Shown here: in pieces, positions 62,462-64,000 of the stretch
Numbering within the stretch: the first letter of the stretch is position 1
How the letters are laid out: each line of letters opens with the position of its first letter
Assembly: GCA_903909375.1 (NCBI GenBank)
Contig: CAIVVM010000036.1
Location: 241,953-305,952, forward strand
Length of the DNA stretch: 64,000 bases
DNA from: an uncultured Alphaproteobacteria bacterium
Lineage (GTDB): Bacteria; Pseudomonadota; Alphaproteobacteria; Caulobacterales; Caulobacteraceae
Direction of reading: 5' to 3'
Notes under the pieces: model-generated
The model's input: the letters and a program-made list of their open reading frames with translations, nothing else
Told to the model about the DNA's origin: nothing
Databases searched by the model: none
Translations under genes and position numbers: made by a program

Positions 62462-62465
<4 letters not shown>

Positions 62466-63223
62466 ACGTGCACGCCATCCGCGCCATCTATCAGTTCGAG
62501 ATGAACCGCTGGATTCGCACCATTGTGCAGTCGGTGGCCGCGCCCGTGATCTCGACGTCGCTTTATTTCGTGGTGTTCGGCGCTGTCATCGGGGCCCGCA
62601 TGGCCTCGGTGGACGGCGTGAGCTACGGCGCCTTTATCGTACCTGGCCTGCTGATGTTGTCGATCCTGACCGAAAGCGTGTCGAACGGCAGCTTCGGCAT
62701 CTACATGCCGAAGTTTGCGGGCACGATCTATGAGGTGCTGTCGGCGCCGATCTCCTCGGCCGAGGTGGTGCTGGGCTATGTGGGTGCGGCCGCCACCAAG
62801 TCGATGGTGCTGGGACTGGTGATCCTGGCGACGGCGCGGATCTTCGTGCCCTACGAGATCAACCACCCGTTCGTGATGCTGGGCTTCCTGGCCCTGACCT
62901 CCGTGACCTTCAGCCTGTTCGGCTTCCTGATCGGGATCTGGGCCGACGGCTGGGAGAAGCTGTCGATCATCCCGACGCTGGTGATTACGCCCCTGACCTT
63001 CCTGGGCGGCAGCTTCTATTCCATCGACATGCTGCCGGGCGTCTGGAAGACGATCGCGCTGTTCAACCCGGTGGTCTATCTGGTGAGTGGGTTCCGCTGG
63101 AGCTTCTACGGCGTGTCGGATGTGGGCGTGGGCGTCAGCCTGGCGGCGACGCTGGGTTTCCTGATCGTGTGCCTGGCGGCGGTGACCTGGATTTTCCGAA
63201 CCGGGTGGCGATTGAAGACGTGA
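62462..63223 (+). CDS. ABC-2-type exporter permease
   Basis: A 253-residue membrane subunit with six hydrophobic segments. [25 protein letters not shown] and the ABC-2 signature region [43 protein letters not shown] are typical of the DrrB/YadH-like group. The ATG overlaps the ATPase stop by 4 nt (ATGA). It completes the exporter. The repeat region begins 17 nt after its stop. Confidence 0.94.
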
Positions 63224-63239: not shown

Positions 63240-63308
63240 ATGAGCTTGATCGTGGCCGCCCTACCCTGCGCGCCTCTGGCGCGCTGTCCCTCCCCATTAA
63301 GGGAGGGA
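63240..63308 (+). repeat. Palindromic repeat unit A
   Basis: This unit begins ATGAGCTTGATCGTGGCCGC, continues with ACCCT, a small hairpin (GCGCGC...GCGCGC) and TGTCCC, and ends TCCCCATTAAGGGAGGGA. The first 22 bases recur exactly at 63805. The last 24 bases form the left arm of a long inverted repeat with unit B. Confidence 0.85.
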
Positions 63309-63347
63309 TTTGAGCGCTTGAAGTCCCTCCCTTAATGGGGAGGGACA
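63285..63347. repeat. Perfect 24-bp inverted repeat (units A and B)
   Basis: The left arm 63285-63308 and right arm 63324-63347 are exact reverse complements over 24 bp, around a 15-nt spacer containing AGCGCT. As RNA it would form a very stable hairpin just past the exporter operon, so it could also act as a bidirectional terminator. As DNA it is a REP/BIME-like pair of units. Confidence 0.85.
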
Positions 63348-63388
63348 GACCGCGCAGCGGTCAGGGTGGGGGAGGTGGGGTCAAGCTG
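63324..63388 (-). repeat. Palindromic repeat unit B (inverted)
   Basis: Read on the minus strand this unit is CCCCCACCCTGACCGC-TGC-GCGGTCTGTCCC followed by the 24-bp arm. It has the same plan as unit A (ACCCT, small hairpin, TGTCCCTCCCC) and is nearly identical to unit C in the hairpin part. Its outer edge is less certain. Confidence 0.75.
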
Positions 63389-63398
63389 AACGCTTGCA

Positions 63399-63863
63399 AT
63401 GAGTACAAATCATAAACATACTTCTTCCATGAGACCCGAGATCACCAGAGCCCGTGCAATGCGAGGCCAGATGAGCGACGTGGAGGTGATCCTGTGGAGC
63501 CGGCTCAAGCGCCTTCGCGAGCGAGGATTTCACATCCGGCGGCAGGCGCCCTTCATGGGATATTTCCTGGACTTTGTCTGTTACGCGCGCCGGGTTGTGA
63601 TCGAGGTTGATGGCGGGCAACATGCCGATGCGGTCCAGGCCGATCACGACAGGATCAGGGATGCGATCCTTCGCCGTCACGGCTTTCGGACGCTCCGATA
63701 CTGGGCTTCGGATGTTCGGCATGACACTGATTGGGTGATGGATCAGATCGTTCTGGCGCTTGAGGCGGCGATGCCAGTTGCGCGAGCAGGGCAGGCTTCA
63801 GGGAATGAGCTTGATCGTGGCCGCCCCACCCTGACCGCTTCGCGGTCTGTCCCTCCCCATTAG
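63399..63863 (+). CDS. DUF559 (Vsr-like PD-(D/E)XK) endonuclease-domain protein
   Basis: A 154-residue protein of the DUF559 family related to very-short-patch-repair endonucleases. MRGQMSDVEVILWSRLKRLRERGFHIRRQAPFMGYFLDFVCYARRVVIEVDGGQH contains the nuclease-like core, with D in FLDFVC and E-x-D in VIEVDGGQH. DAILRRHGFRTLRYWASDV follows. The last 20 or so residues (from GNELDRGRPT to the end) are encoded by repeat unit C, so the repeat supplies the C-terminal tail and stop. The gene is bracketed by repeat units, suggesting they move or persist together. Confidence 0.88.
   Translation: MSTNHKHTSSMRPEITRARAMRGQMSDVEVILWSRLKRLRERGFHIRRQAPFMGYFLDFVCYARRVVIEVDGGQHADAVQADHDRIRDAILRRHGFRTLRYWASDVRHDTDWVMDQIVLALEAAMPVARAGQASGNELDRGRPTLTASRSVPPH
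63805..63862 (+). repeat. Palindromic repeat unit C, cut by the IS element
   Basis: It opens with the same 22 bases as unit A, then CACCCTGACCGC-TTC-GCGGTCTGTCCC as in unit B, and TCCCCATTA. After this TA the expected AGGGAGGGA is replaced by GAGCGTGACC. The unit is therefore truncated at a TA dinucleotide where the IS630-like element begins. Confidence 0.8.
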
Positions 63864-64000
63864 AGCGTGACCGCATCTGACGGATTCGGGATTCACGAGG
63901 TTTGCGGATCGTGATTCAAGGTGGGGGCTGGGCCGGAGGCCAGCCTGCATGACTCGACCGTTTTCACTGGACCTTCGGGAGCGTGTTGCGCGGTTTGTGG
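63863..64000 (+). mobile_element. Left end of an IS630-family-like element (cut by window edge)
   Basis: Sequence from GAGCGTGACCGCATCTGACG onward departs abruptly from the repeat at a TA, the target IS630-family elements duplicate. An 86-bp leader with inverted bits (TCACGA...TCGTGA) precedes a transposase start. The right end lies beyond the window, so the terminal inverted repeat cannot be confirmed. Confidence 0.65.
63949..64000 (+). CDS. IS630-type transposase, N-terminal fragment at the window edge
   Basis: The ATG at 63949 opens MTRPFSLDLRERVARFV before the window ends. This matches the MTRxxSxDLRxRV start I know from IS630-family transposases, whose N-terminus is a helix-turn-helix DNA-binding region. 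GGCCGGAGG upstream could serve as ribosome-binding site. Only 17 residues are visible, so whether the gene is intact is unknown. Confidence 0.65.
   Translation, partial: MTRPFSLDLRERVARFV

Follow-up and report, generated by a model that had tools for sequence, protein, structure and literature searches.

A DUF559 nuclease gene between inverted triplex-type repeat units: a putative compact mobile element in Phenylobacterium

Is a small nuclease gene that lies between palindromic repeats merely their neighbour, or do gene and repeats belong together? This question is raised by a DUF559 gene found in Phenylobacterium at the end of a contig, in a stretch of 64,000 nucleotides that was analysed as a whole and is called the window here. 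The original prediction compared the arrangement to REP elements and their RAYT transposases and proposed a repeat-nuclease partnership with a PD-(D/E)XK enzyme in place of the transposase. In our analysis the partnership is supported by statistics that reach far beyond the window locus. The description of the units as REP-like had to be corrected: they fit the intrastrand-triplex plan of the BoxC/PIT/TM repeats and not that of classical REPs.

The window locus and its nuclease

All parts of the predicted layout of repeats and gene are present at the locus (Table 1). Their order is <A, B> gene <C: units B and C face each other across the gene, and unit A is extra. Hence the claim that all three units surround the gene holds for B and C as brackets and fails for A, which lies outside. 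Unit A is what remains of the right end of a further copy of the element. It shares with C the 22 bp ATGAGCTTGATCGTGGCCGCCC, and this predicted exact match in direct orientation was recovered at 63240 and 63805. A 24-mer, TGTCCCTCCCCATTAAGGGAGGGA, is exact in A (63285-63308, plus strand) and in B (63324-63347, minus strand), with a chance expectation of 0 in 64 kb; no copy of the window hairpin beyond A and B was found in the whole genome, even with 2 mismatches. In unit B hairpin 1 reads TCCCTCCC-TTAAT-GGGGAGGGA and hairpin 2 GACCGC-GCA-GCGGTC. Folding as single-stranded DNA gave z = -6.1 for unit A (0 of 200 shuffles) and z = -5.2 for unit B. The prediction that the repeat encodes the C-terminal tail of the protein also stood, as the last codons and the stop (63861-63863) fall inside unit C. 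This unit ends at CATTA because an insertion sequence was inserted there, and the contig, and with it the window, stops inside the insertion sequence. Judging from its MTRPFSLDLRERV start, we infer that it may be of IS630 type. The same insertion sequence ends two contigs, each time at TA (window 63863-64000 and L009:1-138, 138 bp identical). At another locus (L204, G009:C35:413380-414700) a gene-less pair is immediately followed by a DUF559 gene and a unit of the same class, a tandem like that of A, B, gene and C.

Table 1. Features at the window locus (positions in the window)
Feature	Position	Strand	Remarks
ABC-transporter permease gene	62462..63223	+	ORF; left neighbour, outside element
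Remnant, 3' end of another copy of same DUF559 gene, 22 bp	63240..63261	+	fused to unit A; exact match to 63805-63826
Repeat unit A	63260..63308	-	in opposite orientation to B; tail CCTACCC, second hairpin, first hairpin TCCCTCCCCATTAAGGGAGGGA
Repeat unit B, left end of element	63324..63371	+	mirror tail GGGTGGGG faces gene
DUF559 nuclease gene, 154 aa	63399..63863	+	domain 63444-63761
3' part of DUF559 gene recurring in front of unit A	63805..63826	+	22 bp exact
Repeat unit C, right end of element	63824..63862	-	inverted to B, outer half missing; 39 columns aligned to B, one difference
Insertion sequence splitting unit C at TA	63863..64000	+	identical to start of contig C53 up to TA

The protein matches Pfam PF04480 (E 1.4e-28) and PDB 3hrl (E 1.3e-18), and a start at 63429 (MRPEITRARAM) agrees better with its homologues. 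Numbered from this start, E19, Q39, D48, E59, D61, Q64 and H65 are invariant in 45 sequences. A structure model (pLDDT 88, pTM 0.82) was matched by Foldseek to 3hrl (N. gonorrhoeae NGO0050), 3r3p (I-Bth0305I) and 1vsr (Vsr). The window enzyme is, as modelled, a DUF559 protein of the PD-(D/E)XK type with the Vsr / I-Bth0305I fold. The Vsr-like nuclease of the original prediction is thereby borne out, and acidic and His residues are conserved in it; that it cuts DNA is inferred. The DUF559 protein VsrA of C. crescentus causes DNA damage in vivo when the cytosine methylase ScmA is missing (PMC12907096), so that the family probably cuts DNA in cells; in the literature VsrA is a candidate for a Vsr very-short-patch (VSP) repair enzyme (PMC12907096). 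YcjD, NGO0050 and VsrA share family and fold with the window protein and have so far been seen as predicted nucleases or VSP-type repair enzymes; the members in E. coli and Neisseria also lie near triplex-type units. I-Bth0305I has the fold and the stand-alone Vsr-like catalytic domain in common with the window protein. In contrast to I-Bth0305I, the window gene shows no sign of an intron or intein and lies between inverted repeats that vary with it.

Association of DUF559 genes with repeat units

The genome carries 8 DUF559 genes, all of which adjoin hairpin units of one plan that come in several sequence variants. Besides the class at the window gene, these are CTCCTCCCCCGTCGGGGGAGG (loci L006 and L010), CCTCCCCCGCAAAGCGGCGGGAGG (L007 and L008), TTTCCCGCCGCAGGCGGGAGAGG (L009), CCTTCTCCCCTTGTGGGAGAAGG (L004) and CCTCTCCC (L003, where an inverted pair is found on the 3' side only). 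When the flanks of all DUF559 loci of the genome were compared, the repeat was seen to vary along with the gene. Since the window 24-mer has only 2 copies, counting exact copies alone, as had been proposed, would suggest a private repeat; yet the repeated flanking that the count was meant to reveal is found with variant units at 8 of 8 genes.

Bracketing was assessed by aligning the 500 bp upstream of the DUF559 domain with the reverse complement of the 500 bp downstream, a score of at least 40 counting as positive. Across 60 Phenylobacterium genomes 78 of 95 DUF559 loci were bracketed. Windows of the same size that were slid through the same regions were positive in 4 of 1456 cases, and the top-scoring one was itself a DUF559 gene. 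When loci with homologous flanks were merged, 55 of 69 independent loci of the genus remained positive, and gene-centred controls reached the threshold only once in 310 cases, compared with 51 of 60 DUF559 genes in the same regions. The association was also observed in a phylum sample (42 of 70 DUF559 loci with a score of at least 40 versus 0 of 277 controls) and in an independent set of named genomes (37 of 71 versus 2 of 236) that includes Desulfobacterota, Chloroflexota and Marinimicrobia. Bracketed DUF559 genes occur in Deinococcus, in Pseudanabaena and on pSymB of S. meliloti as well; phages yielded one weak match only. On a plasmid of Sphingomonas parapaucimobilis, a bracketed DUF559 gene (L219:1971-2381) is located between sufB and sufC, inside the suf operon. 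One apparent exception among the controls (L095) turned out to be a second DUF559 gene. In another (L064:7022-7339, G027:C91), two inverted CCTTCTCCC-type units enclose an unrelated, non-DUF559 ORF of some 105 aa, as though it had been picked up as cargo.

Detectable flanking units are missing at about 18% of the DUF559 genes in the genus and at 40% in the phylum sample. The alignment test misses short or decayed units. Because the sampled loci were mostly best-scoring matches, the bracketed fraction in the whole family may also be lower. Recurrent flanking, which the original prediction had put up for checking, is thus found in genus and phylum alike. Two observations were to count against it: homologues without flanking repeats, and repeats unrelated to DUF559 genes. 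The outcome is mixed. The former do exist, in the proportions just given, and the majority is bracketed; as to the latter, most copies lie away from DUF559 genes, as is the case with REPs and RAYTs.

Nuclease and unit were observed to co-vary. Across 84 independent loci protein similarity was correlated with unit similarity (Mantel rho 0.34, 0 of 2000 permutations), the median unit score being 67 among the most similar proteins and 19 among the least similar. Within the genus, CCCTCCC-type hairpins reach a median of 15.5 copies in genomes with DUF559 versus 2.5 without, and CCTTCTCCC-type units 6 versus 0. This link survives when genome size is corrected for, and it is stronger where the class is the cognate one; shared ancestry was not removed. 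Among 249 genomes of the phylum, a strong DUF559 match was found in 39 of 49 TM-bearing genomes, defined by three or more strict TM motifs, compared with 35 of 200 others (OR 18, p 4e-16). This co-occurrence test ignores the shared ancestry of the genomes, and 10 of the 49 TM-bearing genomes gave no strong match. Two congeners carry 61-65 CCTTCTCCC-type units, and their only DUF559 gene has another unit class. Since repeats can be abundant without a cognate DUF559 gene, they either persist without it or have another helper. No paper linking DUF559 or Vsr with REP, BoxC, PIT or triplex was found in the open-access literature, preprints excluded. Repeat and enzyme family are both known; we could not find their partnership described, with most subscription journals outside the scope of the search.

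The repeat unit, the BoxC/PIT/TM motif and ycjD

The observed architecture of a unit, from outside to inside, is a C-rich arm, a loop, a G-rich arm, a second loop (loop 2) and a G-rich tail that faces the gene. This tail repeats the G-arm in mirror order, and an A may be matched by either A or T. Examples of G-arm and tail are GGGGAGGG..GGGTGGGG (window unit B), GGGAGAAGG..GGATGAGGG, GGGGGAGG..GGAGGGGG and GGAGGAAGGG..GGGATGGTGG. A mirror tail is present in 177 of 238 bracketing flanks. Where the arms are asymmetric, the mirror was favoured over a direct copy by 150 to 34 (30 to 8 for distinct arms), and perfect mirrors (28/63) exceeded perfect direct copies (7/63). A mirror in which A is matched by A or T is the code of the antiparallel purine-motif triplex.

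Loop 2 measures 1-7 nt in 91 units and at least 14 nt in 84 units, mostly 14-34 nt; in the window class and in about half of all units a loop 2 of 14-34 nt holds a second hairpin. Stems of at least 6 occur in 55% of the long loops and in 3% of shuffles, and in 34 elements the two second hairpins differ from each other, yet most of them retain their pairing. Among the triloop hairpins of the units, G-N-A loops account for 49% (4% in shuffles) and are commoner on the G-rich strand than on the other strand, by 66 to 19. This bias might be taken as a hint, by inference, that the G-rich strand is used single-stranded. GCGAAGC is an example of the G-N-A triloops towards which the second hairpins of many bracketing loci are biased on the G-rich strand; loops of this type are very stable when the DNA is single-stranded. 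In 69 of 120 elements the stop codon of the DUF559 gene lies in or beyond the downstream unit.

Units that match this plan were already recognised in E. coli in the 1990s as BoxC/PIT/TM repeats and occur in >260 genomes (PMC4666352). The motif (TMECO) is CCCTCNCCC N3-6 GGGNGAGGG N3 GGGNGAGGG, for which triplex formation was demonstrated in vitro (Holder et al. 2015, PMC4666352). There are 23 copies in MG1655, arranged in inverted pairs and unstable between strains, and no transposase, integrase or other mobility gene is reported near them; footprinting gave no sign of a stable triplex in vivo (PMC4666352). The text of that paper makes no mention of DUF559, ycjD or an endonuclease. We derived the mirror rule before this work was found; the triplex was already known and is therefore not a discovery of the present analysis. 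Common to both are the C-arm, loop, G-arm, short loop and mirror third strand, the inverted pairs and the wide spread from enterobacteria to cyanobacteria. The present units also meet the mirror rule of the published motif (G-arm mirrored, A may be T), but a stable triplex has been shown for the E. coli motif only. They differ from the repeats as published in that they bracket a nuclease gene and fall into many classes with their own arm sequences. Furthermore, the published loop 2 of about 3 nt is not found in the window class, where it is 14-34 nt long and holds the second hairpin.

YcjD of E. coli is a DUF559 protein that has long been predicted to be a PD-(D/E)XK nuclease (PMC1189080). Just downstream of ycjD, between this gene and fabI, lies a unit identical to TM motif no. 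9. At ycjD the units are found on one side only, and in Neisseria those near the DUF559 gene are in direct orientation. Matches to the repeat occur at a median of 15 places in E. coli with ycjD versus 3.5 without it, a difference that is confounded with phylogroup and includes the fabI flank in its count. At the sapF-fabI site (L213/L221), some strains have ycjD together with triplex repeats and the others the eef efflux operon. E. coli was rejected as a clean case of ycjD presence and absence, as strains without ycjD carry the eef operon there.

Mobility and its alternatives

Does the element move? Elements at unrelated sites were observed to be alike only up to the outer edge of the unit (median 2 bp from it, more than 25 bp beyond it in 0 of 16). 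The site between ompA and lrp is bare in several species, just after the ompA terminator, is occupied by a complete DUF559 element in others and by a gene-less pair of another unit class in one species. Empty sites, another check named in the original prediction, were thus encountered. Gene-less > < pairs are common and constantly spaced, for example 129-138 bp from start to start in genome G031. No target-site duplication was seen in 58 elements (mean direct match 3.8 versus 3.6 in re-paired flanks, 18 of 200 as high), which is a weak negative, as the element ends are not known to the base. Nor was a recent movement within a species caught. With insertion sequences and their MITEs the elements share unrelated sites, homology confined to the element and empty sites; they do not meet the mark of target-site duplication, within the limits of that test. 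Taken together, the evidence supports a mobile element with non-autonomous derivatives, of which movement itself has not been seen.

The explanation we favour, and consider reasonably probable, is that the locus is a compact mobile element with a Vsr-fold nuclease acting on its own triplex-type ends, where recognition, cleavage and movement are inferred. Such an element of about 0.43-0.8 kb would consist of one DUF559 endonuclease gene between two inverted BoxC/PIT/TM-type ends. C-rich and G-rich arms would form the outer hairpin, onto which the mirror G-rich tail would fold back as antiparallel third strand; the loop before the tail would, in many classes, give way to a second hairpin that varies freely. 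The enzyme would most likely recognise its own unit while the G-rich strand is exposed as a single strand, during replication, transcription or repair, and nick beside the folded unit, at the edge of the element. Through the nick the element, or a gene-less pair serving as its non-autonomous derivative, could be copied, or could move, to another site, where host repair would complete the transfer. Both the single-stranded route and this completion by the host are inferred, like recognition and cleavage.

The main rival is homing, in which the nuclease would cut gene-less pairs and repair from an occupied copy would insert the gene, while the repeats spread by other means. The layout does fit a gene set into its own recognition site as in homing endonucleases, although cleavage of an empty site is only inferred: the short-spaced gene-less pairs share the > < layout, and an occupied site looks like a pair with the gene in its spacer. 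After 3hrl the nearest solved fold is the homing endonuclease I-Bth0305I, and target-site duplications were not seen. However, some sites that lack both gene and repeat in relatives hold a whole element, which implies that the units come in no later than the gene, and repeat numbers follow the presence of DUF559, which would need explaining if another enzyme spread the repeats. We regard homing into existing pairs as unlikely but still possible; the cleavage step is common to both models. It is also doubtful, in our view, that what counts for the enzyme is a G-quadruplex, and not a triplex, of the G-rich strand. In most classes, hairpin arm and tail together do contain four closely spaced G-runs; against this, mirror tails of asymmetric arms with A opposite A or T are required by an antiparallel triplex and not by a quadruplex, and for the E. 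coli motif a triplex has been measured (PMC4666352).

The nuclease might instead work on its own in repair or defence, as a VSP-like or restriction-like enzyme, with units that are insulating, regulatory or just common intergenic DNA. DUF559 domains do occur in large anti-phage proteins, and the damage by VsrA in the absence of ScmA would suit such a role (PMC12907096). We hold this to be very unlikely, because gene-centred controls with intergenic DNA on both sides were positive in only 1 of 123 cases, the unit class follows the nuclease sequence and PIT units are reported to be without promoter or terminator activity (PMC4666352). It is scarcely credible that the units are REPs moved by a RAYT-type Y1 transposase with DUF559 as a passenger: the genome does contain one weak match to a Y1 transposase, but this gene has its own, different 25-bp inverted repeat and no such unit beside it, and the units lack the plan of RAYT-associated REPs. 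RAYT as mobiliser was rejected, since the genome's single Y1 gene has ends of another kind. That gene (L042, G000:C63:66254-66559; 1300-2000) is flanked by the perfect 25-bp inverted repeat CGGTGACACTTTACTTAACCCCCAT and represents a separate small element.

The favoured mobile element nevertheless resembles the RAYT/TnpA-REP, REP and REPIN systems in its one enzyme gene between inverted palindromic units, its gene-less inverted pairs, its cognate classes of enzyme and repeat, and repeats able to outlive the gene. It differs from them in the enzyme, which is PD-(D/E)XK (Vsr fold) whereas RAYT is an HUH/Y1 transposase, and in the unit, a hairpin with mirror tail whereas a REP is a GTAG-tagged palindrome. 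The CCTTCTCCC class presumably resembles the rhizobial RIME. Like the present units, RIME and the Caulobacter CIR are alphaproteobacterial intergenic repeats without a known mobiliser, and without a sequence comparison they serve as leads only (for CIR, PMC2229807).

In conclusion, the pairing is met again in many genomes, with Phenylobacterium, E. coli and cyanobacteria among them, and this suggests DUF559 as the missing partner of the BoxC/PIT/TM repeat. Whether DUF559 proteins are the dedicated mobilising enzymes of these repeats throughout bacteria, including ycjD in E. coli K-12, we consider evenly balanced. The origin of BoxC/PIT/TM repeats is open, and a matching nuclease family makes the question testable in E. 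coli K-12, where ycjD adjoins a TM motif. If confirmed, this would be a repeat-enzyme partnership that parallels RAYT/REPIN and is built of unrelated parts; a family still named "domain of unknown function" would gain a function, and an enzyme possibly able to read DNA in triplex or hairpin form would be at hand. If true, it would represent a class of mobile DNA with single-strand triplex hairpin ends and a Vsr-fold nuclease as its only enzyme.
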